Origin: Clostridia bacterium
Lineage (GTDB): Bacteria; Bacillota; Clostridia; Christensenellales; Borkfalkiaceae
Assembly: GCA_029055875.1 (NCBI GenBank)
Contig: JAIDCJ010000009.1
Coordinates: forward strand, 93,235 to 157,234
Length of the DNA: 64,000 bases
Direction: 5' to 3'
Part shown: one piece after another, positions 6,617 to 42,584 of the stretch
How positions within the stretch are numbered: position 1 is the stretch's first letter
Layout of the letters: every line of letters starts with the position of its first letter
Translations under genes and position numbers: made by a program
Notes under the pieces: generated by a model
Told to the model about the DNA's origin: nothing
What the model saw: only the letters and a program-made list of their open reading frames with translations
Databases searched by the model: none

Positions 6617-9600
6617 ATGAAACGTAAAGTGAATAACCAATTATTACATAACGAGGAGAAAACCGTGTCTCAGAGCGGCAAACCCACCGTGCAAACGTGT
6701 GGGCGCGAAGCTGTGAAAACCGTAAGCAGAAGCAAAAAAGTGCTTGCGGGAGTACTCACGCTTATTTTAAGCGTTCTGATGCTTGTTACGGGTCTCCTCG
6801 TTACATTATTATATAATAACAATAACGGCGGGCAGGAGCTCGGTGGAAATTCCCATGTAGCGGCGACAACGGCGAATTTAACGCCTTATTTGCATGAGGA
6901 CGTAGCGGAAGCAAGCACGTGGGACGCGGCAGTTCAGAACAGCTCCGCAAGTTCTCCCCGCAAATATAAACTCACGGCGGATTGGACGGCTTACTTTGCT
7001 TGGCCGAGATATGTTTTCGGGACCAACGGCAACTGTTATTGGGATACGGCTCTTTACGTTCCCACAGGGAAATCGGTCATTCTCGACTTAAACGGCCATA
7101 CCATTAACGGTAATAACTCAGATGCAAGTCAGACTGGGCGTGGCGACGTAATCGTCGTTGGCGGCACGCTTATCATTACTGATAGTTCGGAATCCGGCAC
7201 CGGCAAAATAACGGGCGGCAAAATGGGCGGTAACAGTTGTAGCCAAGTCGGCGGCGGAGGACTTACAATCCTTTCGGGCGGCACCGTTACGTTGGAGCGC
7301 GGCGCGATTACGGGCAACGAAGGACACTTTAATAATTCAAATGCGGGCGGCGTAGGCGGCGTTTACGTGGCAGGAACGTTCAACATGACGGGCGGCTCCG
7401 TCAACGGAAACCGAATCGGAAACGACGTTTTCAATAACGAAGGAAGGCCGAATAGTACCGCAGGAATTTGGATTACCTCTACCGGTAAAATGAATATGTC
7501 CGGCGGTACGGTTTCCGGCAATGCTTTGGAATATTCTTCTGGTGCCATCAGAAGAGAGTATGCCACGCTCGGCATTCGTGTGGAGGGTACTCTGAACATG
7601 ACGGGCGGTGTGATTGAGGCTCACACGATTCCTAATGATACGCACTACGCTTCTTCCTACGGCGTAGCGGGGGTTCTTGTACAGAATGGCGGCAGCTTCA
7701 CGATGGAAGGGGGCACGATTCGGAATAACAAATCGCTTTATACCGGCGGGGATTCATATGGTGCGGGACTTTTCCTGAATACCAATGCCGTATTTAACAT
7801 GAAAGGCGGTACGATTTCCGGCAACCAGCTTACGAAAAATGCAAACGCTACCAGAGCCGCGGGCATTTTCTGCGGCGCAGGTGTTACGCTCAATATAACA
7901 GGCGGTACCATTACCGGCAATACCGCAACCGGCACGAACAGTGTCGGCGGTGTGATTTGTGCTCCGACCACCAAAATTGAAAACGCTACGATTACGAACA
8001 ACACGGGCGCATTGGTGGGCGGAATGTATCTCGGCACCACTACTTCGACAAGTTTTGCAGGTACTAATAATATTTCCGGCAACAAGGTAGGCAGTACGGC
8101 GTCTAACCTTTATCTTCCTGCCGACGCAAAGATTAACGTAACGGGCGGTTTAACCGGCTCAAATATCGGCGTTACGAGTGTGAAGGGTGGTCTTATCACA
8201 AATGGGTTTGAGGAACATAACCCCGGCGTAGATCCTGCGGATATCTTCATTCCCGATAACCCGAAGGTAGAAATTACTTTGGAAGACGGCGAGGCTTCCT
8301 ATTTCCTGAGAACCAACGCCAATTTATGGACGAAAGCGATTCAGACTTCCGTTGCAAACGGCACGCAGGAAACCTTCCGGTTGATAGAGGACTGGACTGC
8401 TCAATCTTACACGGGACTTGCAACGAATGTACGTTCTTTCACCGAGCCGCTTTCAACGGCAAGCGCGGCATATTATCAGTCTTGCGGCTATGTGTGGTCG
8501 GCAACGAACAACTACGGCGCACTCTACGTTCCCGCAACGGCAAACATTATTCTCGACCTCAACGGCTACTCGATTGACCGTGGTTTAACTTCGGCGGCGA
8601 CGTACGGTTTTGTAATTCTAATGGAAGGTAAGCTGACGATTATCGACAGCAAGGCGCCCGAAGGCGGCTATGCACCCGTTTTAGATGCGAACGGCAACCT
8701 CATGAAGAATGCAGACGGCACCGTGCAAATGAACGCCGAGGGCGGCAGAATTAAGGGCGGCTGGTCGAGTACGGGCGGCAACGGCGGCGGAATTCACGTA
8801 AACCCCGGCGCTACACTCAACCTCGTTCAGGGTGTCATTTCGGGCAACCGCGTTACGGCAGGAACGAACAGCACGTTCGCGGCAGGCGTTAAGTTGTACG
8901 GTAATACCACTACGGCAGCTAACTTCAATATGACGGGCGGCGTAATTGCCGATAACGTTGCAACCACTTCGAATGCAAGCGCTATTTTAGGCGGTGGTAT
9001 TCAGGCAACGTATGCAAACTTAAATATTACGGGCGGCTACGTAGCGGGCAACACCGTTACGTCTTCCACGAGCGGATACTCTGCAAGTGGTATTTCCGTA
9101 CATCTCTGCCCCTCCGTAAACGTCGAGAATGTGAAGGTGCTGGGCAACGAAGGTATCACTGGTATTACGGTATATCAGGCAACTGCTGCCACGCTCAAAA
9201 ACGTAACCGTCAGCGGCAACCGTGCAACTACCTACAACCTTGCAGGCGGCGCTTACTTAGTGGGCAACGCAAACACGGTGAAATTCAAGGTTGAAGACTG
9301 CACGTTCACAAACAATGTAATTGCTACGTCAAGCTCGTATGCCGGCACGGGATATTGGAATCGTGCGGGCGGTTTATGGTGCAACACAGGTGATTTCACG
9401 ATTACGGACACCATCATTGCAAATAACACCACGAACACCGGCTCGGGCGGGTTATCGTTTACAACGGCGAATGCAAAGCTCGATAACGTAATTATAGCGG
9501 GAAACACGACTACGTATGCCGCAGATACGAAGAACGGCACTTTCAATGCCGGCGGTCTTCTTGTTAACGCTTCTACCGTAACGGCAACCCATTGTCATAT

Positions 9601-12600
9601 TGGTTCCGTTTCTGCGGAAGATAACGAACTTAACGGCAAAGAATACGGCGGCAACACGGCAACTGCCAATCTCATTGCGGGAATCATTTCCTTAATGAAT
9701 TCCTCTGTATTCACTTTTGAAAACGGCACCATGAACGATAACAGTTCGCAAGGTCACTCGCTTTCGGTTCGTGGCGGTACAACGGGTGCGTGCACCCTCA
9801 ACCTCAAAAACGTAGATCTCATTCACAACGAAGTTGGATACGGTCAGGCGTTTATGTTGGCGTACGGTTTTGCGCATACGCTGAATTTTGAGAACGTAAC
9901 CGCTGAAAGAAATGTTTCTGGGAGTAGTGCTTTTGCTTTAGAACATAGCTCGACCTTAAACTGGAACGGGGGCAGAATTTCGAATAATACACTTTATTCT
10001 GTTATACTGGCCGGTACTTCCTCGGTTGCCGGAAGTGTGTACCTTTCGAACGTAGATATTACGGACAATGATTGTACTGGTAATCCTATTTCAGTAAACT
10101 ACGTGGCGGGTAGCTCCTTCGTAATGGAAGGGGGCAGCATTTCGGGCAACGACTCTACGCTTGCAGGCGGTGCAGGCGCAATTTACGTAAGTGGTTCCTC
10201 CGCGGCGGCACACGGCGTTTGCCGCTTGACTGACGTAGATGTCGTTGGTAACACGGGTTATATGGCGGGCGGTGTATATGTGACCAATTATGCCGAATTC
10301 TCCATGGTGGGCGGTAAGCTCGAGGGCAATACGTCTCGCGGTAGCGTAGGCGGACTTCGGATAGATGCAAATGCTACCGCTTTGCTTGAAAACGTGGTGG
10401 TACGCAGCAATAAAGCGCTCGCTACGGTAAACACGACAGCGGGCGGAATTTACACTCTCGGTGCGCTCACGCTCAAAACCGTTACCATCGGCACGCCTTA
10501 TGAGGCAGACGCGGAAAAATATGCCAACAAGGGCGCGTACGGCGGCTTGTGGGTTAACACTTCGGGTACGCTCACTTTAAGCGGCGCAGTTGTAATTGCA
10601 AACAACGACGGCGAGGCTGCCAATAACTTCTATTATAACCGTACGGATAAGAAAATTACCGTAGCGGGCGATTTGAGAAACTCGGAAATTTACATGGGCA
10701 CGTCGTTTATCGGCACGTTCACCGAGGGCTACGGTTTATACAACACCGTTTTGCCTGAAACATACTTCCTCTCCGATGAATGGTTTAGTGCAACTGAGCC
10801 CAAGTATATCATCGGACATATCAACGAGGGCACTGCGTTAGAGGGCACCATTCGCCAAAACACCAACGAGGCGAACTGGACGTTTGCCGTTCAGACATCT
10901 TATAGCAACCCCTCGGCGGATGATCCTACGCTGGGTACTTTAACGACCTTCAAACTCATCAGCGACTGGAACGCCAATTCGAGCGGTGCATTCAATGGTA
11001 ACATTGCGGCAGCGCATGCGAACGGATATCAGTCGAACGGCTCGATCATGGTGCCTAACGTCAATGGCGTTCAGGCGAATATTATTCTCGACCTCAACGG
11101 TTACACCATTAACCGCGGCGGTAATATTGCAACGGGCGCGGCAGGCCCTGCCAACGGCAACGGTTACGTAATCTACGTTCAAGGTCACTTAACGGTAATC
11201 GATAGCAAAATGAAAACGAAGGACGGAAGACCCTTCGAGCTCACCTACGATGAAGAGGGTATTCCTCACACCAACGCCGTTGCTCCTTATTACGATGAGG
11301 AAACGGGCGAAGTGGTCACGGGCGGTACGGGCACCATTACGGGTGCAAACAATACAACCGCAAACTACGGCGGTGCGTTCTTAGTAGGCGGCCTCACTGT
11401 TCCGGATCCTCTGAATTACTCGCTCAATCTCCTCGGCGGCAATATCGTAAACAACCGCTCCACGGGCAACTATACCGGCTCAGCGATTACCGCGCGCTAT
11501 AAATCGCATATCTACGTAGAGAACACCTACTTTGGAAAAAACTACGCAAGCGGCTCTTATTCTTCCACCATAACGTCGTACTTGTCTACTACGGGCGATA
11601 CGGTTACGGTTGATAACTGTTTGTTTGTAAATAATACGTCGGCAGCCTCCTACACGCTTACGATGCTGAATACTTCGTTCAATGTAACGAATTCCGAAGT
11701 AAGAAACGGCTCTTCGTACGGAATTTACTATGAATCGACTTTAGAAGATACCGAATGTAACATCGAGCACGTAAAGATAATCGGCAACAAGAGTGGCATT
11801 AATATTCCAAAGGGCGTCGGCACATTTACGGACGTAATCATTAACGGTGGTGACGTTGGTCTTTCTGTTGGAACGCTGGCGGCTACGAGCGTTAAGGCTT
11901 ACGGCGTACAGATTTTGAACTCTTCCGTAAACAATGCATCGAATGCAGCCGTTGTAGTAGGCGCATACGGCTCGCTCGAAATGTACAACTATACCGACTC
12001 GAAAACGGGCGAGGAAATTCCTTGCAGAATTGACGGCAGTAAGAATGCACATGCAAGCGGTGCTGCTGCGCTCTACATAAACGGCGGTACGTTCAAAATG
12101 GAGGGTACAGAAGATACACCTGCTTCCATTTCAAACAACGTCAGCCCTAATTCCAGCAATCTTATTTATACTAAGAGCGGCGCAAACGTAGAGCTCACCA
12201 ACGTTGATATCAAGGGCAACACGGCTAAGGCTAACCTTATTGGGTTGGAAACGACCGTTGCAAAATTAACCGACGTGAATATTACGGGCAATACCGCAAC
12301 TGCTGCGAATGCCACAATTTTGGTAGCATATACTTCTTCCGAACTTACGATGACGGGCGGTTCTATTTCCGACAATACGATTTCGGCAACGAATTCAACC
12401 GGTTATGGTGTTTTAACAATCGGTTATAACACCGCGGCGGCTTCGCACGCAGAGCTCTACGGCGTTACCATCGACGGCAATCACGGCGGTTACGCTACGG
12501 TTTTTGTAAATTCCCGCGGCGACAGCCTCGTGATGACGGATTGCTCGGTTACGAACAATACGAGTAGCGTTACGAACGCCGCAACCGTTATTGTTAATGC

Positions 12601-24600: not shown

Positions 24601-27600
24601 GAGCGGTAACCTCGGAGACGGTAGGGTGACGTACGAAATCTTACCGGGCGGTACGGGCTCTGCGACGATTGACGGCGATATCCTCAATCCTACGGGACTC
24701 GGTACGGTTATCGTGAAAGCGTACGTAGAAGAAACCAGAAACTATCACGGCGGCGAGTGCACGGCAATCATTACCATCGGTAAGAGAATTCCGCAACTGG
24801 GTATTGATAGAAATACCGTGGTGTACGGTGATACGTTGCAGCTGAACGTTACGGGCAACGAAGAGAACGGACAGATTTTGTTCTCCGTGAGGGACGAAAC
24901 GGGCTCGGCAACAATTACTCCTACGAGCGGCATTTTAACACCCGTAAGCGTCGGAACGGTAACCGTGATTATCTCCATTACGGAAACGGCAAGCTTCCGT
25001 GCGTTCACGATTGAAAGAGAAATAACAATCACTCCTCGCCCGATTCAAATCGAATGGGATGAAGATACGCTCGAATTTGAGTATGACGGCACGTTAAAGA
25101 CGCCCGTAGCGAACGTAGTAAGCGGTCTTGTAGAAGGCGATAGCACCGGAATCAACGTACTCGGCGGCAAAATCAATGCAGGCGTTTATACGGCAACGGC
25201 ATCTTCGTGCACGAACCCCAACTATATGATTGATCCCGAATCGGATAATATCAACGTTGAGTTCGTAATTACGCCTCAGATCATTGAAATTCGCATTGAG
25301 CAAACGGAAGCGTACCTTGGAGTACCCGTCACGCTCACGGTCAGCAGTAACTTGCCGATTGATCAGTCGAGGGTTATCTTCACCGTAACCGCTGCCGGCG
25401 GTAACGCAACCTTGGAAGGCAACGTTATCACGGGTACGCAATACGGTCAGGTCATCGTAAACGCAACGCTTCCCGCATCGACGAACTACCAGGGCGCTAC
25501 GGATATGCGTGTCTTTGAAATCAAGAAGTTCGCACCGAACATCGGCTTGGAGAAAAACGAAGTCGTTTACGGATCCACGTTAGATCTCGTAATAACGGGT
25601 AACCTCGGTGAAGGCGCAGCAAGTATCGCGCTCGCGAACAAAGCGGGTGATAGCGGCATGGCATCACTTAACGGCATGAGACTGAGAGGTCTTGCCGTAG
25701 GTAAAGTAACGCTTATCGTAACGATTGCACCTACACCCAACTATGAGGGCGGCGACTTTGAAGTCGAAGTCAACGTCGTTCCCAGACCCGTGGTTCTCGT
25801 ATGGGGCGGTGAGGATCAGGTATTTGAATTCCAGTATAACGGCAAAGAGCAATACCCCGAAGCGCGCGTCATTAACGCTTTGCCCGGAGATGAATGTAAC
25901 GTAACGCTCATCCAAGGCGCAGTTAACGCGGGCAACCACGTTGCCAAAGCGCTCGAACTCGACAACGCAAATTATACGGTCGTAAACGCATTGAATATCG
26001 TAAACGACGAATACGTGAGAGACGTTTCGTTCACGATTACGAAGAGGGTTGCCGAGCTCGAATGGGAAGACGAAGAATTCATCTATAACGGCAGAATGCA
26101 GGCTCCTACTGCTAAGATTCGTAACCTGCTTCCCGAAGATGAGGGCAAGTCAATCCAGATTGTAGTAACGGGCGAAACGCACGCAACGAAGACTTGGGAC
26201 GGCGAAGTTGCAATTGCAACTGCAACCATGATCAGCGACGCAAACTATACGCTCGTAGGCAGCAATAGCATCAGTACGGAATACGTCATCGAACAGCTCG
26301 AAGCAGAGCTTATATGGGACGATCCGGCAGTCGTAGATTACGGCAGTGAAGTAACGCTTCCCGGAGCCATCGTAGGCAACAAAGCATTGCAAACCGACGA
26401 ATGCGACGTCTTGGTGAAAAAGTACGAGCCTACTCAGACGTTTGCGCTGTTCGCGGCAGGTGCGGGTTCGCGTGCCGGCACGGTATCCAATACGTGTATT
26501 GCGGAAGCCTACGGGTTTGAGGGTGCCAATAAGGACGACTACAAGCTTCCCGAAGATAACTTGAAAGAGTATATCGAGAATGCAAAAGAGATTACCGTCA
26601 ACTTCGGTAGCTTGGAGCTCGTTTATAACGGTCAAGAGCAATATCCGACCTGGTCGCTCACGGGCGTTCAGGCAGGCGACGACGTCTCGGTCGAGTTCTC
26701 TTGCGATGAAGAGCCGATCAACGTGAAGTATGCATCCGATAACGTAACGATTGCGTCTTATACCGCGAAGCTCAAGCTCGTTGGTAAAGATGCCGAACAC
26801 TACGCAATCGATATTCTTCAACAGGAGACCGATGAGCAGGGTAACATGCAAGCCTTGGTTGACTTCAAGATCGTGCCCCGTCCCGTAACGGTATACGCAA
26901 CTTCAAAAGACGTTCAGTTGCTGCTTGAGCTCGACGAAAACGGCAAGTTCGTTCTTGATAAGTTCACGACCAAGGATTGGGAGGATTGGTTCTTCCTGAC
27001 CTGCGACGAATTAGTCGGTAAAGATATCGGCGCAGACGTACACACCATCTTCGATGCAGAAAATCTCTTCCTTAGTCCGGCGTTCTACCGCATCACGAGA
27101 GACGAACAAGGCAATATCGTTTCTATTTCCGATGAGCGCGTAATCCCCGGACAGGAAGGACCCGACATCAGCATGGGTGAGTACAAGATCGGTATCATTA
27201 TCGAAAACCTTACCAGACTCGACTGCTTAACGGGTAACTACATTGCAGAAGTCAAACTTTCCGATGATTATGGTATTCTTACCATTCTCCGCGACGACGC
27301 AGTACTCAAGCTCGACGTTTTGAGCGGCTACGAGTTCCTGTATCTCGAAGAAGACGGTTGGGATATCTACCGCAGAGCATATACGGAACTCGGCTGGAAG
27401 CACGGCGAAGACGACGCTTTGTTTGAACGTGTGGTGCTCGGTCAGGTAATGCCTGAAACCACGGTAGATATGTTCCTTGCCAATATTCATCAATCGCAAA
27501 TGATGTCGATTAGAATTTACGATTCGTACGGCAACCTCATCTACGATTGCGGACAGATGATCGACTCGGAAGCATTCATTGGTACAGGTTCAAAGATACA

Positions 27601-27874
27601 ACTCATGCTCGGCGGCGAAGCAATCGATACGGTTTACGTTTCCGTTCTCGGTGATACCGACGGTGACGGCGAGCTTAAAGCGAAAGATTCGTCTAATATT
27701 TCTCAGTACATTATGGGTAAGAATCAAAGTGAAAAGTTTGAGTTGGACGAATATATCTTGGCCGCATTGTTGCAAAACGAGGGAATCATGAGTGCGAAGG
27801 ACGCTTCGACGGTAACATCCATTATTTATGGGAAAGAATCGGTAGAAGATTATTTCTACAAAAAGCAAGACTAA
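6617..27874 (+). CDS. Giant secreted surface protein (~7085 aa): signal/TM segment, eight beta-helix-type large repeats, tandem MBG/Ig-like repeats, C-terminal dockerin-like domain
   Basis: Single uninterrupted ORF (track start 6599; better start ATG 6617 with GGAGG at 6601-6605). N-terminal hydrophobic VLAGVLTLILSVLMLVTGLLVTLLY; repeated GGVYV..GTFxMTGGxIxxN; repeated LEWxxxxFxYNGxxQxPxAxxxN/xNAGxYxAxAxGLxNxNY; C-term GDTDGDGELKAKDSSNISQYI. Confidence 0.93.
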   Translation: MKRKVNNQLLHNEEKTVSQSGKPTVQTCGREAVKTVSRSKKVLAGVLTLILSVLMLVTGLLVTLLYNNNNGGQELGGNSHVAATTANLTPYLHEDVAEASTWDAAVQNSSASSPRKYKLTADWTAYFAWPRYVFGTNGNCYWDTALYVPTGKSVILDLNGHTINGNNSDASQTGRGDVIVVGGTLIITDSSESGTGKITGGKMGGNSCSQVGGGGLTILSGGTVTLERGAITGNEGHFNNSNAGGVGGVYVAGTFNMTGGSVNGNRIGNDVFNNEGRPNSTAGIWITSTGKMNMSGGTVSGNALEYSSGAIRREYATLGIRVEGTLNMTGGVIEAHTIPNDTHYASSYGVAGVLVQNGGSFTMEGGTIRNNKSLYTGGDSYGAGLFLNTNAVFNMKGGTISGNQLTKNANATRAAGIFCGAGVTLNITGGTITGNTATGTNSVGGVICAPTTKIENATITNNTGALVGGMYLGTTTSTSFAGTNNISGNKVGSTASNLYLPADAKINVTGGLTGSNIGVTSVKGGLITNGFEEHNPGVDPADIFIPDNPKVEITLEDGEASYFLRTNANLWTKAIQTSVANGTQETFRLIEDWTAQSYTGLATNVRSFTEPLSTASAAYYQSCGYVWSATNNYGALYVPATANIILDLNGYSIDRGLTSAATYGFVILMEGKLTIIDSKAPEGGYAPVLDANGNLMKNADGTVQMNAEGGRIKGGWSSTGGNGGGIHVNPGATLNLVQGVISGNRVTAGTNSTFAAGVKLYGNTTTAANFNMTGGVIADNVATTSNASAILGGGIQATYANLNITGGYVAGNTVTSSTSGYSASGISVHLCPSVNVENVKVLGNEGITGITVYQATAATLKNVTVSGNRATTYNLAGGAYLVGNANTVKFKVEDCTFTNNVIATSSSYAGTGYWNRAGGLWCNTGDFTITDTIIANNTTNTGSGGLSFTTANAKLDNVIIAGNTTTYAADTKNGTFNAGGLLVNASTVTATHCHIGSVSAEDNELNGKEYGGNTATANLIAGIISLMNSSVFTFENGTMNDNSSQGHSLSVRGGTTGACTLNLKNVDLIHNEVGYGQAFMLAYGFAHTLNFENVTAERNVSGSSAFALEHSSTLNWNGGRISNNTLYSVILAGTSSVAGSVYLSNVDITDNDCTGNPISVNYVAGSSFVMEGGSISGNDSTLAGGAGAIYVSGSSAAAHGVCRLTDVDVVGNTGYMAGGVYVTNYAEFSMVGGKLEGNTSRGSVGGLRIDANATALLENVVVRSNKALATVNTTAGGIYTLGALTLKTVTIGTPYEADAEKYANKGAYGGLWVNTSGTLTLSGAVVIANNDGEAANNFYYNRTDKKITVAGDLRNSEIYMGTSFIGTFTEGYGLYNTVLPETYFLSDEWFSATEPKYIIGHINEGTALEGTIRQNTNEANWTFAVQTSYSNPSADDPTLGTLTTFKLISDWNANSSGAFNGNIAAAHANGYQSNGSIMVPNVNGVQANIILDLNGYTINRGGNIATGAAGPANGNGYVIYVQGHLTVIDSKMKTKDGRPFELTYDEEGIPHTNAVAPYYDEETGEVVTGGTGTITGANNTTANYGGAFLVGGLTVPDPLNYSLNLLGGNIVNNRSTGNYTGSAITARYKSHIYVENTYFGKNYASGSYSSTITSYLSTTGDTVTVDNCLFVNNTSAASYTLTMLNTSFNVTNSEVRNGSSYGIYYESTLEDTECNIEHVKIIGNKSGINIPKGVGTFTDVIINGGDVGLSVGTLAATSVKAYGVQILNSSVNNASNAAVVVGAYGSLEMYNYTDSKTGEEIPCRIDGSKNAHASGAAALYINGGTFKMEGTEDTPASISNNVSPNSSNLIYTKSGANVELTNVDIKGNTAKANLIGLETTVAKLTDVNITGNTATAANATILVAYTSSELTMTGGSISDNTISATNSTGYGVLTIGYNTAAASHAELYGVTIDGNHGGYATVFVNSRGDSLVMTDCSVTNNTSSVTNAATVIVNAGNATTYGSLSLNNTAIDGNTAPRAALLLGGSAAFSMTGGSVSNNTTTHLNSIVFGLGGSVKDLNGNVGVTLDGVTVSGNNCTRAITLGGDTSFAGLRTSGIGTWTDLVLNNCEISENHGAYFGGIVGNSGVNLTLNNTTVQNNTGVKAGGIYSQGELTLNNSHVDNNTAEGSLNSGDKGAAGGIFVNSGVLNLGAGSSVSGNTCSVPESAGGIYVKGIVEMTGGDIIGNTATGSASAGGVYIFGAATTKLNMSGGSITLNSASDADEANNVKMGAGGVYVAGSGVTAGTLAIEGNVTIDTNLLNGAQQSNSNVYVVDAENVMILVTGELSTSSSVGVYRRPIGVFTKDFGTHNPTVLAEAIFHSDLLLSEVASYDTVREEVVKTAGADIEGYTISYDNEINWAFLVNYSLNHNGETQTFVLYGDWVAPMLNTNTTSFGSDLRAFSNGALQVPAGANMIIELNGSSIDRNLYRADGSGTSAAGRDSGYVITVAGGGTLIIQDNHRKDDSLIREGINDREQGAVYNGSITGGNNATRNRAGGIYVAQNGTLTLKDGMIAGNRGSGSAPVAGGVYVDGTFDMYGGAVNENFGDSAGGIYVSATGTFTLFAGEIKNNSSVSSTNASGVGGVRVVNNGVMYFGDGVSELGKIEISGNTLSTGVNSNLKSDNESYQFQVNGKFGDGTQIGVTRGMNAKITEGYGQYNNVGGTEIDPRLYFFSDDEDHFVTQEGSGTDTEAIMFGYNNRDNWTYAVETSLRFEGATQTFMLYSDWTASRPASTNYTSEFGSNTNAYYRGALYVPAGASIILNLRGHVLDRGLSQNEIRADGFVIYVLGELIIIDEPDSHDETADIGIITGGASRNLAGGVVVGNGGELTLKGGVISGNIASYASGSAGGVYVYGSGDTHFTMTGGEITENRGYDAGGVYVDNGLGGDRNGTFTMTGGSITENRAVSSNIGGVRVNTTGIIELGGGAIIKDNSNGELEKTSNLYLMYANNSGSLATVPPNIQVVEAFTNAADIHITRETIGQFTEGFEESGTVRSTTDVFTSDNDDYFVDTIEVEITLEDGTTKTTHEAFMKCYLASVNWSYTVQMSLTTGTTQTFTLEYDDWTAELSASDGTSFGRGVGYEQGRLWVPVGASIILDLNGHTIDRALDHAVQNGEVFFVQGELTIIDKSDAKTGTIMGGYSTGTGGIYNSGKLTIEAGTITGNRSTAVANGAGIYNSGTLTMTGGTVTGNSGYRAGIYQDTTGIINLGGSVKIDGNFYETEGEDGDTVQTPSNLYIKSNTGVINVIKPFTSGAKISLIREGIGVLTNGYGVYNTVNPETYFVSESPNNIYEVSHIGEGTRLEAAIVSFDNATNWTHAVKTSLANQGAVQTFTLYSNWTPDENHSFGNDVGYLGGALYVPQGANIILDLNGYTIDREFVEAVTRGYVFDIAGSLTIIDSSDEKTGVITGGYSTNTAGGIHVENNGWVDLQEGTLKGNATTSSRDGGAITVNGKLSMTGGVITENEGVVCGGVYVSTSGTLELGGKAKIFDNTKGEDEQANIYLESSRGMVTIISNFTEDAYFTITRKGIGPFTTGYGAFATNVEVTFVSEDELYIVERTSNGQELQMITKDNRLNWEYAVQTSLDTGTTQEFKLWDDWNATNGVFGTTAPYYLNGALNVPVGASISFNLNGKALNRGLTSARANGYVMYVSGELILNDLSSEQTGVFKGGYNSSGSSTGGVYVNRNATFTMNGGRISENSVQGAGGGGVYNNGNFTLNGGVIGAFETDEVSYGGNSGLAGGVFNGPYGTFVMNGGSINGNTSVNNAGGVYIYNSVDSIFIMNGGSITNNTAEDAGGVYVSGKFNMTGGEISGNTAKGTNVTKGGGSGVYVSSSGVFTMTGGVVKENVGLNGVRVYSSGTLNVGGTAQVYNNKNERVYDSTDPHEYRNVYLTVGTQFVNVVEKFEEGAFIGVTRDASGIFTAEYGTYNPNSSPANYFQSDVEAYAVSSAQSNVTGTIEGVIGTPVQQPSKTESPVYDGEWHAILVDYNPKYMSYGPLPQGVIYDEDEGAFKAVNAGEYTISFTLKEGFCWPDGTSGTLNLIVKIEPRVAELEWKHLDDLVYNTREQTPTAIVTNLVPGDVCDVYVTGGQIHAGSYVATASFLSNSNYTLKNAKESDIERGFTISKAEISVEILNDSAAYNTPQVLKVNANVGKDGITFIVIDNTWITYEVDAAGASLIDLNELAGGIILAKEANGTIYVTAVVGETQDTLPATSDPKEIKLTKATPNLGLAETTVEYGTDLELKVTGNDEASATLTLVNGTGEAVLNGTTLTPVKAGKVKITISTEETDHYFAKEVTVTVDITPKVLVIEWDGPFEFKYDGFVHGPEAHATNLVGNDECKIIVGGQQTDAGEYLGENGAHALLTSNPNYTLEGAENLYHDFVILQVPLPVDDKISLVKNTVHYGDTLTLEITGNREDAEVFYEISEPQAWPANRQRGEAVIYYDYGVDEEGNRLTEGDRLDPFTAILEPTGSIGFVLVKVTIGESKNYTGCVYYEYVEILKAKLDASFYTDAERELREVVYGDENCLLEVVGNPENGKVEFTVLGGTGEVQIEGNVLKALRVGQVNIRMHIAATDHYDEQYVSAIITVKPRPVILSWTLNTLIYNGEEQAPVASVANLAFGDRITVLVEGAVNAGIHTARAIGLTGERSENYTLEVEEGALAVTTPFEIQPRKIESITWGNTELLFNGKTQVPAYTLVGLVYGDTCELVMENAGRDVGRYTATAVGVKNTNYYIDETTANRTITYTIIKAPITLQILNEYVLYYNEVQVELEGNIGDGEITYTITTNPSGIATISKDGVIFASDYGYVTIRVEVAETNNTYSGWVEKTVPVKKGEASLDFVKTDVIYGDTLDLEFASIYHPDQISITLQNGTDEAGTGMATLDVINRVLTATGAGEVTLVIYTRETDRYLETVKEITITIHKRILTVEWKDEFTYDGTEKLPVAEEIGNLAFNDRAPEITLEGAQIDAGEYIATVTGISNPNYALLVDEENSINGYLVPFKITKAGLDIEVRPEEIFIDQERVPVEILNNPGGNNFTLELVNDTGSADLIMERDEEGNVSYYITPSAVGEVVLIVHIPASDNYLAYDGQFTITISRLAPEIDLETVEVFYGDNLTLSVTGEGTADREVTYSVANGTGSAELVDATTLLGTGVGTVIVTVTLAETDIYEEQTFEVIVTVKKRPVVLTWDVGEYVYNGEEQAPEATIDNTVFGDTVNVTVRGNINAGSNLIAEAIELDNENYTIVGGTNITVTYTIDRKIVEIEWDEDTRSFIYDCNQHQPTAVVKSGLIEGDECDVIVSGAQTDAYDAWEAAVSGLSNPNYDFDHDSEANTTTFEIKTADPEVTLNEVEVRYHELSELSVTVTPIGGDVTYTIIAGNEFAEIRNGNKIYGLELGTITLQIHVDSTMGSAGVLNTYEKTIEVEITIQKGWQPYELDENTVVYGSDLELELKNYVEAADYKFLEIIRIEGDDGDATLSGNVLTPVHVGKVKVKVEYAETDHYEKTIRELEVTITPYVLEFTWDNAPADEKLIFTYNGQEQAPKAIPEKLFGDDECEILVQGARNAGNWTARATGTSNPNYTIVGSNSIVDHPTQNFTIKPLTVIVEWNDTTLEYTATAQTPKANIANKVEGDVVSFVYEGAQTEMGTYTGDERARIVGLTGRDSGNYTLEGVDAEDLETDFEIVKGHINLRLSTSSTNITYLQSVTVTLTGNIGGGEVTYQVVSGSGRFNTDANGRVTFTPGGAGRVVIRAYVAETEKTYEGYSNTVTIEVAKANWSVGFSYSTNGQNGVAYYGTTTTLRWAPGVSPGFSYTPIANDKGGSWINVNTFRGYGVGTYSIFVTWGGNANFKAGSTWVSIRVQRLPLTIDWQTLEFTYNGTQREPVVVTHTQVTEKGDHYAVRFSGLGTNAGSYVANAVGLKDGGDTYYVLTGDNLSSSYTIGRAEIDPKIITTDAEYGVPLQLLVSGNLGDGRVTYEILPGGTGSATIDGDILNPTGLGTVIVKAYVEETRNYHGGECTAIITIGKRIPQLGIDRNTVVYGDTLQLNVTGNEENGQILFSVRDETGSATITPTSGILTPVSVGTVTVIISITETASFRAFTIEREITITPRPIQIEWDEDTLEFEYDGTLKTPVANVVSGLVEGDSTGINVLGGKINAGVYTATASSCTNPNYMIDPESDNINVEFVITPQIIEIRIEQTEAYLGVPVTLTVSSNLPIDQSRVIFTVTAAGGNATLEGNVITGTQYGQVIVNATLPASTNYQGATDMRVFEIKKFAPNIGLEKNEVVYGSTLDLVITGNLGEGAASIALANKAGDSGMASLNGMRLRGLAVGKVTLIVTIAPTPNYEGGDFEVEVNVVPRPVVLVWGGEDQVFEFQYNGKEQYPEARVINALPGDECNVTLIQGAVNAGNHVAKALELDNANYTVVNALNIVNDEYVRDVSFTITKRVAELEWEDEEFIYNGRMQAPTAKIRNLLPEDEGKSIQIVVTGETHATKTWDGEVAIATATMISDANYTLVGSNSISTEYVIEQLEAELIWDDPAVVDYGSEVTLPGAIVGNKALQTDECDVLVKKYEPTQTFALFAAGAGSRAGTVSNTCIAEAYGFEGANKDDYKLPEDNLKEYIENAKEITVNFGSLELVYNGQEQYPTWSLTGVQAGDDVSVEFSCDEEPINVKYASDNVTIASYTAKLKLVGKDAEHYAIDILQQETDEQGNMQALVDFKIVPRPVTVYATSKDVQLLLELDENGKFVLDKFTTKDWEDWFFLTCDELVGKDIGADVHTIFDAENLFLSPAFYRITRDEQGNIVSISDERVIPGQEGPDISMGEYKIGIIIENLTRLDCLTGNYIAEVKLSDDYGILTILRDDAVLKLDVLSGYEFLYLEEDGWDIYRRAYTELGWKHGEDDALFERVVLGQVMPETTVDMFLANIHQSQMMSIRIYDSYGNLIYDCGQMIDSEAFIGTGSKIQLMLGGEAIDTVYVSVLGDTDGDGELKAKDSSNISQYIMGKNQSEKFELDEYILAALLQNEGIMSAKDASTVTSIIYGKESVEDYFYKKQD

Positions 27875-27885
27875 ATCTTATTCGG

Positions 27886-27915
27886 CCCGAAGGGGGAGGA
27901 AACTCCCCCAAAGGG
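27886..27915 (+). promoter_or_regulatory. Intergenic GC-rich hairpin with GAAA loop, no following T-run
   Basis: CCC-GAA-GGGGGAG-GAAA-CTCCCCC-AAA-GGG between the stop at 27874 and ATG 27949. Confidence 0.6.
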
Positions 27916-27948
27916 TTGATAGATTTCAAAAATTAAGGAGAAAATCAT

Positions 27949-30327
27949 ATGAAGAGCACAAAAAAGAAAGTAATTCTTTCGGTTTGCCTTGCAGCACTTT
28001 TTGCCTGCATTGCAGTAGTAAGTGGCGTAATGCTTGCATTGAACTTGAACAAGCATTCTAAACCGGATGCGGTATCCACTGCGGCTACTGGCCCCGAGAC
28101 GCTCACTACGCCTGCTAAAATGAAATTGACAACTGACCGTACAAGTTTGACACCCGGTTGTAGTGTTACGATTCACGTTTCACTTTCAATTGTTGACACC
28201 GGTGTTTGGTATGCAGCGCAATCAGTTTTGGCGCCTATAAACGAAGACGGTACTATCAATTACGAGCTTGCGCAGTACTTTTCGATTGATCAGTCTTCGA
28301 TTAAAAATCCTACGATAATTGCAGTTGAGAAGGGTGATTATGCGCTTATTTCTAAGCTTTCTTCTTATACCGCAGAGGTTTCGGATTGGTTTAATCGTTA
28401 TAATAGTGAGGATATTGCCACAAAGCAGGGAACGGGAATATTCTTCTATATTTCAAAGTCCGGTAGTGCTTCTTTGGAAACGAATAATGATTTTGAATTT
28501 GAGTTTGTATTAAAGGTCTCCGACTCATTTCCTTTAGATCAATACGATTCAGTATCGTTCGGTCTTAGTCCTGCTTACACGCGGAACTTCTTTACTACAA
28601 TTCCTGACGACGCACATTCCTCAAATCAGAAAGATTATACGGCGCAGGAGAATACCTATTCTTCCAACATTCTTTCCTATGCGGCAAAGAAAGCAAACAC
28701 GGAAGCTGAAATTGATTCGATTAAGATTGTGGTTGACGTGAAGGGAGACCCTACCACCGAAGAATACGTAATTGAAGCGGACGATTTCGTGGGCGGCAAT
28801 TACGATCTCGCGCTTCCCGAAACCTCCGATTTGGATTTGCTCGTATTCTATCCCAAAATGAAAGATGGCAGCGAGAACGCAACCGTGAAGGCGGGTGCAA
28901 CCGCATCTCAAAACGGAACTCCCGCAACGCTTACGGAGCTCGCCCAAGACGGTACGGAAATTAAAGTTTCCGGTACGAACAGATATCTCTACATTCAGGC
29001 AACTCCCGAAGACGGCAATACGACCAACAGAAAGGTTTACACCGTTAAACTTACGTTTAAGTATGCAAGACTGATTAACTTAACGGCAACCTCAGAAGGT
29101 TTTGCAGATACTTCCATCACGAAGTACGATTTAGACTTAGAGCCTACGAACGGCGAATTTGATCCCGATACGTTCAGCTATACGGCGTACGTTCCCGAAG
29201 GAACGACCGATACGACGGTAACGCCCACGCTTGCGGTGGACTACGGTACGTCTACTTCGATTAGGGTCGTGAAAGACGGCGCTTATCAGATCGTTGGCAA
29301 TAAAGTTAGCGTAAACAACGAGGCGGAGCTTTACCTCAGAGGCATTGAAAACGGTGATAAAATCAGCTTTGAACTTACCGCACAAGACGGCTCCACTCAA
29401 ACCTACGATATCACGTTTGAAATCGTTACTACCGATACGAGCTTGAAAGAGGTTAAGGCAACGGGAAACACATCGGGAAAAGATATTCCCAACAACGAGG
29501 AGAAAGCGGAGGAAGAGGGTAAAGATTACTACTTCCGCGTGGCAGACACCCCCGCTGAGGCGAAGCTCACCATCACGCCTAACGATGAAAACGCGAAGGT
29601 GGAAATTAAAAAGGTCGGTTCCGATGAGTTTGAAGAGTTTGATCCCGATAAGGTTTACGACCTCGGCGAATATATCGTAAAAGTAACCGCTTCGGCGGGC
29701 AATTCTAAGGAATACACCTTGGTTTTGGAGAAGTTCGACGGCTTCGAGCTGAAAGCAGGTTCCGATTTTGCATTGATTGCTTTGGTGGAAGATACCAACA
29801 CGTACGGTGAAACTGTTCACTATCGTAGAACGTATGAAGAACTCGATTGGACGCACGGTATCGACGACGTTAACTTAGAAAGATACGTTTTGGGTGAAAT
29901 TGTTGCCGGAACCACTTTAACCGCATTGACGAATGATTTCCTCAAGGTTGATCAAATTTGCGTTTACACGGCAGACGGAACTTTGATTTTCGACGGCGCA
30001 AACGGCGGTATTGTTTCCGGTCATGCAGACGACCTCGTATGCACGAGCTGGAAGGTTGTTTACGGCAGCGGCGCTACGGCAGATATTATCTATGTTTCCG
30101 TCCTTGGTGACGTAAACGGCGACGGTGAGATTACCGCAAAAGACTCGTCGGATATTTCTACACACATAATTAAAGATACCATTAGAGCATTTGATTTCTT
30201 GGAAGTGCAGCTTGCCGCTTATTTGAGTAATGAGGGCGCAATTCTTGCAAAAGATGCTTCAAATGTAAGTGCTATCGTCATAAGAGAGGATAGAACTATC
30301 AATGAATATCTTCGTGTTAATCAATAA
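27949..30327 (+). CDS. Secreted protein: N-terminal cohesin-like domain, cadherin-like beta-sandwich domains, C-terminal dockerin-like domain (candidate adaptor)
   Basis: Signal-like ILSVCLAALFACIAVVSGVMLAL; N-terminal domain homologous in-window to ORF 30396; C-term VSVLGDVNGDGEITAKDSSDISTHII parallels the C-term of the giant ORF; SD AAGGAG. Confidence 0.88.
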   Translation: MKSTKKKVILSVCLAALFACIAVVSGVMLALNLNKHSKPDAVSTAATGPETLTTPAKMKLTTDRTSLTPGCSVTIHVSLSIVDTGVWYAAQSVLAPINEDGTINYELAQYFSIDQSSIKNPTIIAVEKGDYALISKLSSYTAEVSDWFNRYNSEDIATKQGTGIFFYISKSGSASLETNNDFEFEFVLKVSDSFPLDQYDSVSFGLSPAYTRNFFTTIPDDAHSSNQKDYTAQENTYSSNILSYAAKKANTEAEIDSIKIVVDVKGDPTTEEYVIEADDFVGGNYDLALPETSDLDLLVFYPKMKDGSENATVKAGATASQNGTPATLTELAQDGTEIKVSGTNRYLYIQATPEDGNTTNRKVYTVKLTFKYARLINLTATSEGFADTSITKYDLDLEPTNGEFDPDTFSYTAYVPEGTTDTTVTPTLAVDYGTSTSIRVVKDGAYQIVGNKVSVNNEAELYLRGIENGDKISFELTAQDGSTQTYDITFEIVTTDTSLKEVKATGNTSGKDIPNNEEKAEEEGKDYYFRVADTPAEAKLTITPNDENAKVEIKKVGSDEFEEFDPDKVYDLGEYIVKVTASAGNSKEYTLVLEKFDGFELKAGSDFALIALVEDTNTYGETVHYRRTYEELDWTHGIDDVNLERYVLGEIVAGTTLTALTNDFLKVDQICVYTADGTLIFDGANGGIVSGHADDLVCTSWKVVYGSGATADIIYVSVLGDVNGDGEITAKDSSDISTHIIKDTIRAFDFLEVQLAAYLSNEGAILAKDASNVSAIVIREDRTINEYLRVNQ

Positions 30328-30395
30328 AATATAAGCGTAAAACAAATAATTTTATACTGGGCAAATGCCAATCATCTCTATAAGGGAAAACCAAT

Positions 30396-33300
30396 ATGAA
30401 AAATAACGCAAAACCGCTATCCAAAAGAGGTAAAATTATTGCAATAATCGTTGCAATAATTTTGGCGTGCTGTATTACTGTAAGCGGAGTAATGCTGTTC
30501 AAACCGCAGAAAAACGGTCCCGTGGCAACAAATGCGGCAAGTACGACCAATGCAACCGTCACCATAGAGGCAGATAAAACCGAGTGGGAGGCAGGTGATG
30601 AGGTTACACTTACGATAACTTTTTCTGAACAAAGAACGAATAGCATCTATTATGCCGCAGAGGCTACACTTGTTCCTCTTAAATCGGATGGCACTATTGA
30701 TCTGGAGCTCTGCAAAGCGTTGAAGATTGTGGGGGAACCGGTAGGTCCGTTACAATATGACGTAACGCATGGAAACATGGGTAATATAGCGGCTTTTGGC
30801 GCTTATACGCTTGAAGCAACTGATAGGTTCGACTACGACAGTCTTAGAAATAAGAATCAGGTTGGCTTATATTTCTACTGTTCAAAAAGTGGTAGTGCTT
30901 CGTTAAGCACCACACAAACTTTTACTTTTGAGATAAAGATAAAAGTTGACGACAACTATTCGGGATCTTCCAATTTCAAGTTTGGTTTATCTCCCAATAT
31001 GAACAGTTACATCTGCACGTTATATGGCCCTGAAGCGGATAACAACCAGATAGACGATAAATTGAGCGAAGGTAATTTCTCTGCCGTTTCTCCCGATTTC
31101 AAAATCGGTGATGATGATGGTAGCGGCGGGGAGACGCCAACCGTTCAGCCTACGCTTTCCAAGCTGGAGCTTTCCACAAGCATGGCGAGCGGCTACTCGG
31201 AGGTCACCTCGGGCGGAGGCGTTACTTGGAAGCTTGCAGATCACGCAGTAAACAGCTATGTTTACTTCCGTGCAACCGTGCCTACGGGTGCAACTGCGAG
31301 TGCAAGCACGGGACTTGATGCCACGTCTACTGCAAACGTATTCAGGGGCCGGCTTGCTTACGGTACGAACACGTTCAAGGTAAAAGTACAGGGCACTTCT
31401 GCAAGCCGGGAATATACCTATACCATTAAACTCTTAGAGCAGGTGAACACCATTTCAAGCATCACGGCTTCGCCTGCGCTTACGGGCTTCACGTTCAATC
31501 CCGCTACTACTTCTTATTCGTTAGAGGTTGAGAATTCGGTTTCGTCTCTTACACTTACCGTTACCATTGACGGTGATTACGAAACGCTTACCGCTTCCGG
31601 CTCGCCTACGAAATCGAATACGGGAAAGGTTTATACCTTAGTATATAATCTTAGTACCGGTACGAATACCATTACGCTCCGCGGTGTTAGCGACGAGTCC
31701 GTAAACGGTACGCAGTATACGTTTACCGTGAAGCGTAAGACTGACGACGGTAGTACCACTAATCCGGATCCGAGCACCGATAGCTCGCTCACCGGACTGG
31801 AAATCACTTCGGGCGGAAAGCCTGCCACGCTCAGTCCCACGTTCAGACCCGATAAAACGGACGGCTATACGGCTACGGTTGACGATATCGATGATATAAA
31901 CGTCAATCCTACGCCCAATCCGGATGCAAAAAATACCGAAACCAAAATTACGGATAACGGCGACGGCACCAAAACGGTTACGGTAACGGTAACGGCAGAG
32001 GACGATACTACCACCGAATACGTCATTACGGTGAAAGAGAAGGATAAGCCTACTCCTCCCGTGAGTTTGGGCGACGCGATTCTCGACGCAATTTACGTCA
32101 ATAAAAATATTGCCGACGACTTGTATGGACAGGGTGATTTGATTCCCGGATTTAAGTCCGCAGAAACCGACTACAAGATTTTCGTACCTTACACTTGCGA
32201 GTATGTTCGTCTTACTGCGATTGCAGAGTCGAATGCGGACGTTGTCATGTACACAAACGGCGAAGAGGCCGATCCGGCGAACTTGGGCAAGGTAACGGAT
32301 ATCGTCCATTTGGCGAATATCGGTGATCGTGCCGAGGTGCAATTCGTGGTTACCACGAGCGAGGACACGAGAACGTACACGGTGGTAATTACCCGCTCTA
32401 CACAGGCTCCTTATCTGAATTATTTGACCGTCGGCAATTATCAGATTTATGACGCAAACGGAAAAGCGATTGACGGCAAGAAAGAGGACGCCGTTCGCGA
32501 CGTAAAAGATTTCTACGTTACGATTGAGAATGCCGATACGATTGTCAACGTCGTTGCGAAAGCAAGTCCCGAAAATGCAACTGTTTTGATTCAGAATAAG
32601 GGGAACTTCATCGTAGAGGAGCTGTTCAACGGTAAAGCAACCGTCGATCTGCCGTTCTCGGTAGTTATCCTTGACGACGACAATACTCCGATCAGCGAAA
32701 CGATTCACTATACGTTGCATCTCACGCGGAAACCCAAGCTTACCAGCGATATCAACGCGCGTATTATTATCGACGAAATCACGAAGGCGCACAACTCCGT
32801 CATCTTCAATGACGAGTATGCGCAGGATTGGAATACGGACAGAATCGTTTACGGTGCGAACGAGCCTTACTATCGCGTGCCTTACAACGTTTCCGCGCTC
32901 ACCATTCACGTTTATCCCGATGCAATCGGCGAATTGATTGCTCCGCCTACGTATCAGATTTTCTACGGCGACGTATTAAAGAGCGATAACGGTGCGGAAA
33001 ACACGAGCCTTCGTCTGAACTACACGTTCAACGTCGTTACCATCGTAATTACTTCAAGCGATTTATCGACGAGTAAAACGGTCGTAGTAATCGTTTACCG
33101 CGAGGAACCGTCTTTGAGTAATCCGGTAATCGTGGAAATTCCCGATTTCAAGAATGAGTATCAGCCCGAGGTCACCGATTACGCTTACACGGTAGGACAC
33201 GACGTCACCAAGCTCACCGTTCAAGTGGGTTGGGACACGGCTATGTACACCTGCGTGATTGAGGGCGCAGACAGCTTGAAGATCGGACATAATATCGTAA

Positions 33301-33761
33301 CGATTAGTCTTTACGAGAAGGCGTCCGGTATCAGCAATACGGCTGCATCCACCGATAAGCCCAATGCGGTAAGAACGATTACGCTCGACGTATTCCGTGA
33401 GAGCAACGGCCCGAGCACGATTTGGCTCATTCTCTTCATCGTATTCTTGGTGCTCGCAATCCTTGAGTTCCTTATCCTTCTTCTCCTCCTGTTGAGAAAC
33501 AGAAGGGAAACGGAGAAAGTAACGGAAAGAGTAGTGGTTCAAGCCGCGCCTGCACCCGTGGTAAGACAGCAGCTTGCCGCTCCTCCCGTAGCACCGCAGG
33601 TGCAATATATTGCAATGCCTCAACCGCAGGTGCAATACGTTGCAATGCCTCAACCGCGGCCCCAGCCCGTGGAAGCGGAGAAACCGCAACAGCCCGTAAA
33701 CGTTGAAGTAAAAATCACCGGTTGCGGCGATAGCGACGGCTACTACAAAACGAAGAAGTAA
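30396..33761 (+). CDS. Membrane-anchored surface protein: N-terminal cohesin-like domain, cadherin-like repeats, C-terminal TM helix and Pro/Gln-rich tail (candidate anchor)
   Basis: Signal-like IIAIIVAIILACCITVSGVMLF; repeated TAEDDTTTEYVITVKE-type modules; C-terminal IWLILFIVFLVLAILEFLILLLLLLRNRRETEK followed by ~80-aa tail. Confidence 0.88.
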   Translation: MKNNAKPLSKRGKIIAIIVAIILACCITVSGVMLFKPQKNGPVATNAASTTNATVTIEADKTEWEAGDEVTLTITFSEQRTNSIYYAAEATLVPLKSDGTIDLELCKALKIVGEPVGPLQYDVTHGNMGNIAAFGAYTLEATDRFDYDSLRNKNQVGLYFYCSKSGSASLSTTQTFTFEIKIKVDDNYSGSSNFKFGLSPNMNSYICTLYGPEADNNQIDDKLSEGNFSAVSPDFKIGDDDGSGGETPTVQPTLSKLELSTSMASGYSEVTSGGGVTWKLADHAVNSYVYFRATVPTGATASASTGLDATSTANVFRGRLAYGTNTFKVKVQGTSASREYTYTIKLLEQVNTISSITASPALTGFTFNPATTSYSLEVENSVSSLTLTVTIDGDYETLTASGSPTKSNTGKVYTLVYNLSTGTNTITLRGVSDESVNGTQYTFTVKRKTDDGSTTNPDPSTDSSLTGLEITSGGKPATLSPTFRPDKTDGYTATVDDIDDINVNPTPNPDAKNTETKITDNGDGTKTVTVTVTAEDDTTTEYVITVKEKDKPTPPVSLGDAILDAIYVNKNIADDLYGQGDLIPGFKSAETDYKIFVPYTCEYVRLTAIAESNADVVMYTNGEEADPANLGKVTDIVHLANIGDRAEVQFVVTTSEDTRTYTVVITRSTQAPYLNYLTVGNYQIYDANGKAIDGKKEDAVRDVKDFYVTIENADTIVNVVAKASPENATVLIQNKGNFIVEELFNGKATVDLPFSVVILDDDNTPISETIHYTLHLTRKPKLTSDINARIIIDEITKAHNSVIFNDEYAQDWNTDRIVYGANEPYYRVPYNVSALTIHVYPDAIGELIAPPTYQIFYGDVLKSDNGAENTSLRLNYTFNVVTIVITSSDLSTSKTVVVIVYREEPSLSNPVIVEIPDFKNEYQPEVTDYAYTVGHDVTKLTVQVGWDTAMYTCVIEGADSLKIGHNIVTISLYEKASGISNTAASTDKPNAVRTITLDVFRESNGPSTIWLILFIVFLVLAILEFLILLLLLLRNRRETEKVTERVVVQAAPAPVVRQQLAAPPVAPQVQYIAMPQPQVQYVAMPQPRPQPVEAEKPQQPVNVEVKITGCGDSDGYYKTKK
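33594..33653 (+). repeat. 30-bp tandem duplication in the C-terminal tail (PQVQYIAMPQ/PQVQYVAMPQ)
   Basis: CCGCAGGTGCAATATATTGCAATGCCTCAA repeated in tandem with two mismatches. Confidence 0.85.
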
Positions 33762-39198: not shown

Positions 39199-39516
39199 AT
39201 GCAGGAAATATTAAAATCAATCAATGAGGCCGAGCAAAAGGCGGCTGAAATAAAAACGGCGGCACAGCAAAAGGCGGCGGAAATTGCGGATAACGCGGAG
39301 CAACGCTCTCAGGAAATCGCAAAGCTTTCGGAAACGGATTGCAAAGCGTACCGCGAAAAGGCTTTGAAGGAAGCCGAAGAGGCTGCGCAGAAGCATTACG
39401 ACGACGAAATTACCGCAAAGCGGGCGGAAGCGGCAAAGTACGCCGCAAAGTGCCTTGCGTCTACGGACGATATTGTAAACGAGATAGTTCGGAGGATCGT
39501 GCGTGGCAGTTGTTGA
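39199..39516 (+). CDS. V-type ATPase peripheral-stalk subunit G/H-like coiled coil
   Basis: Ala/Glu/Lys-rich coiled coil, first gene of the V-ATPase operon, overlapping the subunit I gene. Confidence 0.75.
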   Translation: MQEILKSINEAEQKAAEIKTAAQQKAAEIADNAEQRSQEIAKLSETDCKAYREKALKEAEEAAQKHYDDEITAKRAEAAKYAAKCLASTDDIVNEIVRRIVRGSC

Positions 39517-41476: not shown

Positions 41477-41495
41477 AAAAATTTTGGAGGTATAT

Positions 41496-41990
41496 ATGAT
41501 TTCATCACTTTTAGCGGAAGGTGAGCAGGCTGCTTCGGGAGCCGGTGCCGGTTTTGCAATTGCTATGGTCGGCGTTGCACTCTGCGTAATCCTTTGCGGA
41601 ATCGGTTCGGCGCTCGGGCTTTACAAGACGGGCACGGCGGCGGCAGGCGTATTGAGCGAGGCACCCAAAAAGTTCGGTAAGGTGTTCATGCTCGTGCTTC
41701 TTCCCGCAACGCAAGGTTTGTACGGCTTCGTTATCGGCATCATTGCATCCGGTTCGATTGCTCCGGAATTATCCATGGCGCAGGGCTGGGCAATGTTCGG
41801 TGCAGTTATGCCTATGGCAATTTCCGGTCTTATTACGGGCATTTTCCAAGGTAAATCCTCAGCCAACTGTATCTATGCGGCAGGCAAGCAGGATTCGCTT
41901 AGCTTCAAGCTCGTTATCTATCCCGCAATGATCGAGTTCTATGCAATTCTCGGACTCGTCATTTCCATTATGTTACTTCCCCTTGTATAA
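41496..41990 (+). CDS. ntpK: V-type ATP synthase subunit K (proteolipid)
   Basis: Duplicated hairpin of hydrophobic helices; LPATQGLYGFVIGII. ATG 41496 follows TTGGAGG. Confidence 0.92.
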   Translation: MISSLLAEGEQAASGAGAGFAIAMVGVALCVILCGIGSALGLYKTGTAAAGVLSEAPKKFGKVFMLVLLPATQGLYGFVIGIIASGSIAPELSMAQGWAMFGAVMPMAISGLITGIFQGKSSANCIYAAGKQDSLSFKLVIYPAMIEFYAILGLVISIMLLPLV

Positions 41991-41996
41991 AAGATT

Positions 41997-42584
41997 ATGA
42001 GCGAACAGGCAATCGTTGAAAGAATTATTTCCGACGCCGAGGAAGAGGCGCGGCAAATTATTTCGGATGCGGAGGAGAAAGCTAAGGCAACCCTTGCCGA
42101 GGCAAACGTCCGCGCCGAAAGAAACAAGCAGGGAACGGAAGCGGAAGTAAAAGCCAAGGCGCAGAGCATTTTCGACGGAAAGGCGGCTACCGCACGGCTT
42201 GACGGCGCAAAAATTCTGCTTGGTGAAAAGCGTGGCGTAATAGACGCGCTCTATTCCCGCGCACTTGAAAAGCTGCTTACTTTAAGCGAAAAGGAAACGC
42301 TCTCGCTCTGCACGCGGCTTCTTGCCGAATACGCCGAAGAGGGCGACGAATTGGTGTTTGCGGAAAATTTCCGCTATGCAAAGTCGGTTGCGGCTCTTCC
42401 GATCGTGAAAGAAAAAAAGTTAAAGATTTCAAAGGGGAACGCTGCGGTTGACGGCGGGTTCATACTCTCGGGAAAAAATTCCGATAAAAACCTTTCCTAC
42501 GGCGCTTTGCTTGCTATGGACAGGGAAGAACAACAAGCTCAAATCGCATCCGTTATATTTGATTCCGGTACATTGAATGGCTAA
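41997..42584 (+). CDS. ntpE: V-type ATP synthase subunit E
   Basis: ERIISDAEEEARQIISDAEEKAKATLAEA; operon position. Confidence 0.87.
   Translation: MSEQAIVERIISDAEEEARQIISDAEEKAKATLAEANVRAERNKQGTEAEVKAKAQSIFDGKAATARLDGAKILLGEKRGVIDALYSRALEKLLTLSEKETLSLCTRLLAEYAEEGDELVFAENFRYAKSVAALPIVKEKKLKISKGNAAVDGGFILSGKNSDKNLSYGALLAMDREEQQAQIASVIFDSGTLNG

Follow-up and report, generated by a model that had tools for sequence, protein, structure and literature searches.

A predicted enzyme-free cohesin-dockerin surface assembly encoded by three adjacent genes of a Clostridia bacterium

How a surface protein of about seven thousand residues could be held by a cell whose genome has no detectable sortase is the question raised by three genes of a Clostridia bacterium affiliated to the Borkfalkiaceae. 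The stretch of DNA analysed here, hereafter the window, covers 64,000 nucleotides (assembly GCA_029055875.1, contig JAIDCJ010000009.1, positions 93,235 to 157,234); it lies on contig C25 of a genome of about 1.5-1.6 Mb that is 96% complete. A first-pass annotation had proposed the anchored display of a giant adhesin, with gene 3 holding gene 2 and gene 2 bridging to gene 1. The features on which the present analysis relies are the following:

6617-27874, + strand: gene 1, encoding a giant surface protein of 7,085 aa when read from the likely ATG (ORF, domain search, ortholog)
27368-27649, + strand: module preceding the gene 1 dockerin, occupying the position of an X module (similarity to the gene 2 module)
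27650-27871, + strand: gene 1 dockerin, canonical in its first calcium loop (DTDGDGELKAKD) and degenerate in the second (LLQNEGIMSAKD)
27949-30327, + strand: gene 2, putative adaptor or spacer, 792 aa (ORF, domain search)
28102-28686, + strand: predicted cohesin-fold domain of gene 2 (homology with the gene 3 domain that was modelled)
29128-29418, + strand: cadherin-like beta-sandwich (PF12733) of gene 2 (domain search)
29821-30105, + strand: module preceding the gene 2 dockerin (similarity to the gene 1 module)
30106-30324, + strand: gene 2 dockerin, with a canonical first loop (DVNGDGEITAKD) and a degenerate second one (YLSNEGAILAKD)
30396-33761, + strand: gene 3, putative membrane anchor, 1,121 aa (ORF, domain search, TM prediction)
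30543-31106, + strand: predicted cohesin-fold domain of gene 3, the one modelled (AlphaFold2 and Foldseek)
33399-33506, + strand: predicted C-terminal TM helix of gene 3, residues ~1002-1037 (TM prediction)
33507-33758, + strand: predicted cytoplasmic tail of gene 3 (ortholog comparison)
62036-62194, + strand: third dockerin, both loops canonical, closing a GLUG/FIVAR protein of 2,496 aa (gene 54761-62251; domain search)

Genes 1, 2 and 3 are three successive ORFs of the + strand, as the first-pass annotation had read them, separated by 74 nt (genes 1 and 2) and 68 nt (genes 2 and 3). The longest ORF of gene 1 begins at 6599; the ATG at 6617 is the better start, since it is preceded by GGAGG 11-12 nt upstream. 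Gene 2 is preceded by the ribosome-binding-like motif AAGGAG and gene 3 by AAGGGA, no strong + strand terminator was found in either gap, and a promoter-like match (11/12) is located at 33937, between gene 3 and the next gene (GH16). With this layout, the co-transcription of genes 1-3 is plausible. The first gap also contains a perfect 7-bp hairpin without T run (27891-27908, GGGGGAG-GAAA-CTCCCCC), which may act as an element of mRNA stability between the genes of the giant protein and the adaptor. Gene 3 is immediately followed, in the window as in the sister species (64% identity), by the gene of a GH16 lipoprotein with Big_2 domains (34040-35695), an enzyme beside the operon but devoid of dockerin. 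This cluster of surface proteins is followed by an operon whose first gene encodes a V-type ATPase subunit I (39503-47670).

A search of 103 genomes of the genus retrieved the full three-gene set in one other genome, G239 (contig C10, CAMUBY010000010.1), in the succession S-adenosylmethionine synthetase region, giant gene, gene 2, gene 3, GH16 lipoprotein gene and Big_2 gene. Identities between the window and G239 amount to 59% for gene 1, 57% for gene 2, 56% for gene 3, 64% for the GH16 gene and 38% for the Big_2 gene, the gene 1 ortholog having 6,666 codons, of which 6,665 residues could be aligned. In a third, fragmented genome (G750), the end of gene 1 runs into the start of gene 2. As the set is conserved over two to three species, chance can be ruled out, and its finding in full in one other genome, with the gene 1-2 junction in a third, indicates a system that is rare, patchy and kept as a unit. 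A weak order-level match in G348 was discarded as a false positive falling in a NifS-like aminotransferase ORF, and a two-sequence profile gave no match when one genome and one viral set were scanned with it.

The giant protein displays, in this order, an N-terminal hydrophobic segment, Gly/Asn-rich repeats over ~3,900 residues, MBG-like repeats over ~2,900 residues, a ~95-residue module and a dockerin. The Gly/Asn-rich part, without Pfam match, reads like a right-handed beta-helix, and the MBG-like part gave one sub-threshold MBG_2 match; the size and the repeats of the protein suggest an adhesin. The C-termini of genes 1 and 2 are related to each other (40%, E=4e-33), sharing the dockerin as well as the ~95-residue module that precedes it. 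Searched alone, the C-terminus of gene 1 matches the dockerin of the A. cellulolyticus ScaB adaptor (4uyp) over both repeats with E=6e-6. The gene 2 dockerin of the window scores 15.2 bits against Pfam PF00404, below the cut-off of 22.9, which is exceeded by its sister-species ortholog (28.4 bits) and by that of gene 1 (23.9 bits). By sequence homology, these C-termini, initially described as dockerin-like, are thus real dockerins related to the known tandem F-hand dockerins. In both genes the first calcium loop is intact, and the second has lost two ligands, 1 and 3, in every one of the five sequences (5/5). The AlphaFold model of the module and dockerin (pLDDT 44.6) was too poor for use.

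Genes 2 and 3 both start with a hydrophobic segment followed by the N-domain that they share. In gene 2 the latter is succeeded by the cadherin-like sandwich, the ~95-residue X-like module and the dockerin, and in gene 3 by cadherin-like repeats, the TM helix and a conserved tail. The relatedness of the two N-domains noticed in the first reading is borne out (33% identity, E=1e-27), and the guess that they are cohesins is now backed by a fold prediction. The gene 3 domain was modelled with AlphaFold2 from four sequences of two species, without any cohesin sequence or template (pLDDT 77.6, pTM 0.77), and in a Foldseek search of the PDB with this model ranks 1 to 24 were all cohesins. The best match was the R. 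flavefaciens ScaC cohesin (E=1.2e-6), and the target-normalised TM reached 0.65 with cohesins from C. perfringens and C. cellulolyticus. The model is of low confidence over residues 72-85 and of moderate confidence over residues 86-120, a region that comprises much of the presumed binding face. The N-domain scores 12.4 bits against the Pfam cohesin family (PF00963), below its cut-off of 24.1; profile-profile comparison with 29 genuine cohesins yielded a probability of 51% over 51 columns corresponding to the first strands (positive controls, 96-99%), and a sequence search of the PDB with the N-domain profile returned no cohesin. Antibody light chains, the sole matches of this last search, were set aside as chance Ig-like similarity. 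The shared N-domain is therefore predicted, on the basis of the model, to adopt the cohesin jelly-roll fold. Weak Pfam cohesin matches at the ends of contigs C8, C10, C20 and C23 of the window's genome proved to be repeat-rich paralogous proteins unrelated to it. These four contigs carry, near their ends, giant repeat-rich surface proteins that are very similar to each other, a multicopy family that seems to be responsible for the breaks in the assembly.

A cohesin fold does not by itself impose a dockerin as partner. The rank 25 of the same Foldseek search is the CLIPPER domain of a fibrillar adhesin, one of the other proteins in which this type of sandwich is found, and together with the calcium ligands lost from the second dockerin loop it is what would be expected if the N-domains bound a glycan or another protein, the degenerate dockerins being only C-terminal caps. 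The co-occurrence of cohesin folds and dockerins in one operon speaks against this explanation, as does the manner in which these modules have diverged between the two complete species, the window's genome (G000) and G239, which is the new evidence brought by this study. In gene 2, ortholog identity is 64% for the signal segment, 44% for the cohesin, 64% for the middle part, 71% for the pre-dockerin module and 46% for the dockerin; in gene 3, it is 67% for the signal segment, 42% for the cohesin, 58% for the middle part and 81% for the TM helix and tail. The body and the module of gene 1 are both 62% identical and its dockerin 41%, bearing in mind that its N-terminal ~600 residues align poorly and that some windows of the body drop to 32-36%. 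The four interaction modules are thus at 41-46% identity, against 58-81% in the flanking segments of genes 2 and 3.

The same modules were also compared with their counterparts in the neighbouring gene of the same genome. Ortholog identity exceeds within-species identity by 0.29 for the pre-dockerin module (95% CI 0.20 to 0.37) and by 0.38 for the signal/TM segment of genes 2 and 3, whereas the difference is -0.05 for the dockerin (95% CI -0.13 to 0.05) and +0.02 for the cohesin (-0.04 to 0.09). The interaction modules have lost their ortholog signal and the adjacent modules have kept it. At the level of individual sites, 11 cohesin positions follow a within-species pattern, versus 1 for the control pattern and 13 following orthology; for example, SKSGSASL is found in both cohesins of one genome and SKGVTG in both cohesins of the other. 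Strict site patterns are few in the dockerins (4 within-species, 2 control). At positions 10-11 of their loops, which we take to be the recognition residues, the window's genome has Ala-Lys in 4/4 repeats, and G239 has a small residue followed by Val, Leu or Ile in 4/4 repeats. This uniformity within each genome, added to the co-divergence of four modules whose neighbours do not follow, makes the glycan-binding or capping explanation very improbable. The third dockerin shows the opposite behaviour, being 58% conserved against 47% for its own protein.

Several points limit or refine this pattern. Codon identity between the within-species modules is not in excess, so that recent gene conversion is unlikely and was rejected as the source of their similarity. 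Part of the co-divergence, which was measured on only two complete species, could correspond to saturation, especially in the dockerin. The species-specific cohesin sites are not significantly clustered on the dockerin face when strands only are considered (p=0.63), and the p=0.011 obtained when the strand 6/7 loop is included depends on a post hoc choice and hence is no evidence.

Since the four modules co-diverge and their neighbours do not, the most economical interpretation is that of one specificity group, in which both cohesins and both dockerins recognise each other. The first-pass annotation is accordingly followed for the display of the giant protein through cohesin-dockerin contacts, favoured by the co-divergence, and not for the fixed succession of gene 3, gene 2 and gene 1, which fits poorly with a single specificity group. 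Such a succession would imply orthogonal pairs, the gene 3 cohesin taking only gene 2 and the gene 2 cohesin only gene 1, as the gene order and the analogy with the R. flavefaciens adaptor and anchoring scaffoldins (PMC5301203) might suggest. Orthogonal pairs should nevertheless keep distinct recognition residues, whereas both dockerins share theirs within a genome and the same species-specific patch is present in both cohesins; we consider this strict chain unlikely.

As for the attachment to the cell, the TM helix reported near the C-terminus of gene 3 was retrieved by prediction (residues ~1002-1037) and is followed by a tail of ~85 residues, charged and Pro/Gln-rich. The last ~25 residues of the tail (VNVEVKITGCGDSDGYYKTKK) are nearly unchanged in both species and have no clear homologue elsewhere in the genus; the other matches in the genus being low-complexity TM or Pro-rich sequences, a shared anchoring family was rejected. 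In accordance with the earlier reading, the translations of genes 1-3 show no LPXTG-type ending, and Pfam Sortase has no match in the window's 96% complete genome. Because no sortase was detected, TM anchoring combined with docking would replace LPXTG anchoring. Alternatively, genes 1 and 2 could be held in the membrane by uncleaved N-terminal hydrophobic segments, the cohesin-dockerin contacts only tying anchored proteins, side by side or across neighbouring cells. All the large proteins of the region indeed start with a hydrophobic segment of 20-30 residues after a basic stretch, and the candidate Ala-rich cleavage sites are unusually far past it (about 10-20 residues). Ala-x-Ala-like motifs are nonetheless present after every one of these segments, and an N-anchored gene 1 would leave the C-terminal anchor of gene 3 and the adaptor nearly purposeless, which renders this alternative improbable.

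Altogether, we consider it likely, with some reserve, that this operon specifies a cohesin-dockerin assembly at the cell surface, devoid of enzymes. In this predicted assembly, the C-terminal helix of gene 3 would keep this protein in the membrane, with its single cohesin exposed to the outside. The dockerins that end genes 1 and 2 would bind the cohesins of genes 3 and 2, and gene 2, with one cohesin and one dockerin, would act as a spacer between the anchor and the giant protein. As the specificity seems common to the four modules, the docking of gene 1 on gene 3 may be direct or pass through one or several copies of gene 2, and gene 2 may bind its own copies and form chains. The binding itself, the choice of partners, the calcium dependence, the topology and the adhesin nature of gene 1 are inferred. 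A bolder version, possible though rather doubtful, extends the latter property: gene 2, with its cohesin and its dockerin sharing one specificity, would polymerise head to tail into a sortase-free fibre of variable length, with gene 3 as the root and the giant gene 1 as the tip, the interface being re-specified between species and the fibres private to each. The co-divergence leads in any case to a direct prediction, namely that pairing is species-specific.

The inventory of both genomes is in line with a minimal set, as each harbours two such cohesins and three dockerins; both cohesins are single, and no multi-cohesin scaffoldin was detected in the window's genome or in G239. The third dockerin closes, in each genome, a FIVAR/GLUG protein of 2,400-2,500 aa encoded elsewhere than in the operon (in G239 on contig C5, 43% identity between the two proteins), and its recognition residues differ from those of genes 1 and 2. 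A cohesin matching it was found in neither genome, making it an orphan. Searches of Pfam and NCBIfam identified no catalytic domain in the three dockerin proteins or in gene 3, extending what had been noticed for the two dockerin-bearing genes of the operon.

To our knowledge, cohesin-dockerin pairs are almost always discussed together with enzymes. Non-cellulosomal cohesins and dockerins were reportedly reviewed by Peer et al. in 2009. A cellulosome comprises a multi-cohesin scaffoldin and dockerin-bearing catalytic subunits, neither of which was detected here. Among non-cellulolytic cells, cohesins and dockerins are described in ANME archaea and their partner SRB (PMC9012536, PMC10553843), and a giant Omnitrophota ORF carries nine dockerins (PMC10066038). 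As in the present case, a role in attachment or an association with giant proteins has been proposed; these are domain annotations, and the parts of these reports available to us describe no conserved giant-adaptor-anchor operon with co-diverging modules. The Limousia mucinolysome, also from gut Clostridia, has scaffoldins whose dockerins are predicted to bind the scaffoldins' own cohesins as well as an anchor with a single cohesin, but differs by its multi-cohesin scaffoldins, its many dockerin-bearing enzymes and its LPxTG anchor (PMC12997984).

The nearest known system is CttA with ScaE, and the nearest adaptor ScaC. In R. flavefaciens, CttA-XDoc docks on ScaE, a single-cohesin surface anchor of the same locus (PMC5301203), and the operon described here similarly associates, in one locus, a non-catalytic protein ending in a module and a dockerin with a single-cohesin surface anchor. 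CttA, however, contains CBMs, and ScaE, held by an LPXTG/sortase link, also serves an enzyme-loaded cellulosome (PMC5301203); here no cellulosome, CBM or sortase was detected, the anchor is predicted to be a TM helix with its tail, and the cargo reaches about 7,100 residues. Like gene 2, ScaC is a small non-catalytic adaptor with one cohesin and one dockerin, but its cohesin is reported to have its own specificity, distinct from that of the scaffoldin on which it docks, and it adapts enzymes (PMC5301203), whereas the modules of gene 2 look like one group and no enzyme dockerin was detected. As the modules score below the standard Pfam thresholds, similar systems would escape Pfam-based surveys. 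The distinctive traits of the locus are its giant cargo and its co-diverging single specificity, without detected enzymes, multi-cohesin scaffoldin or sortase, and, if the proposed reading is true, a minimal set of three genes would use the cohesin-dockerin snap for the sole purpose of building and anchoring a giant surface protein.
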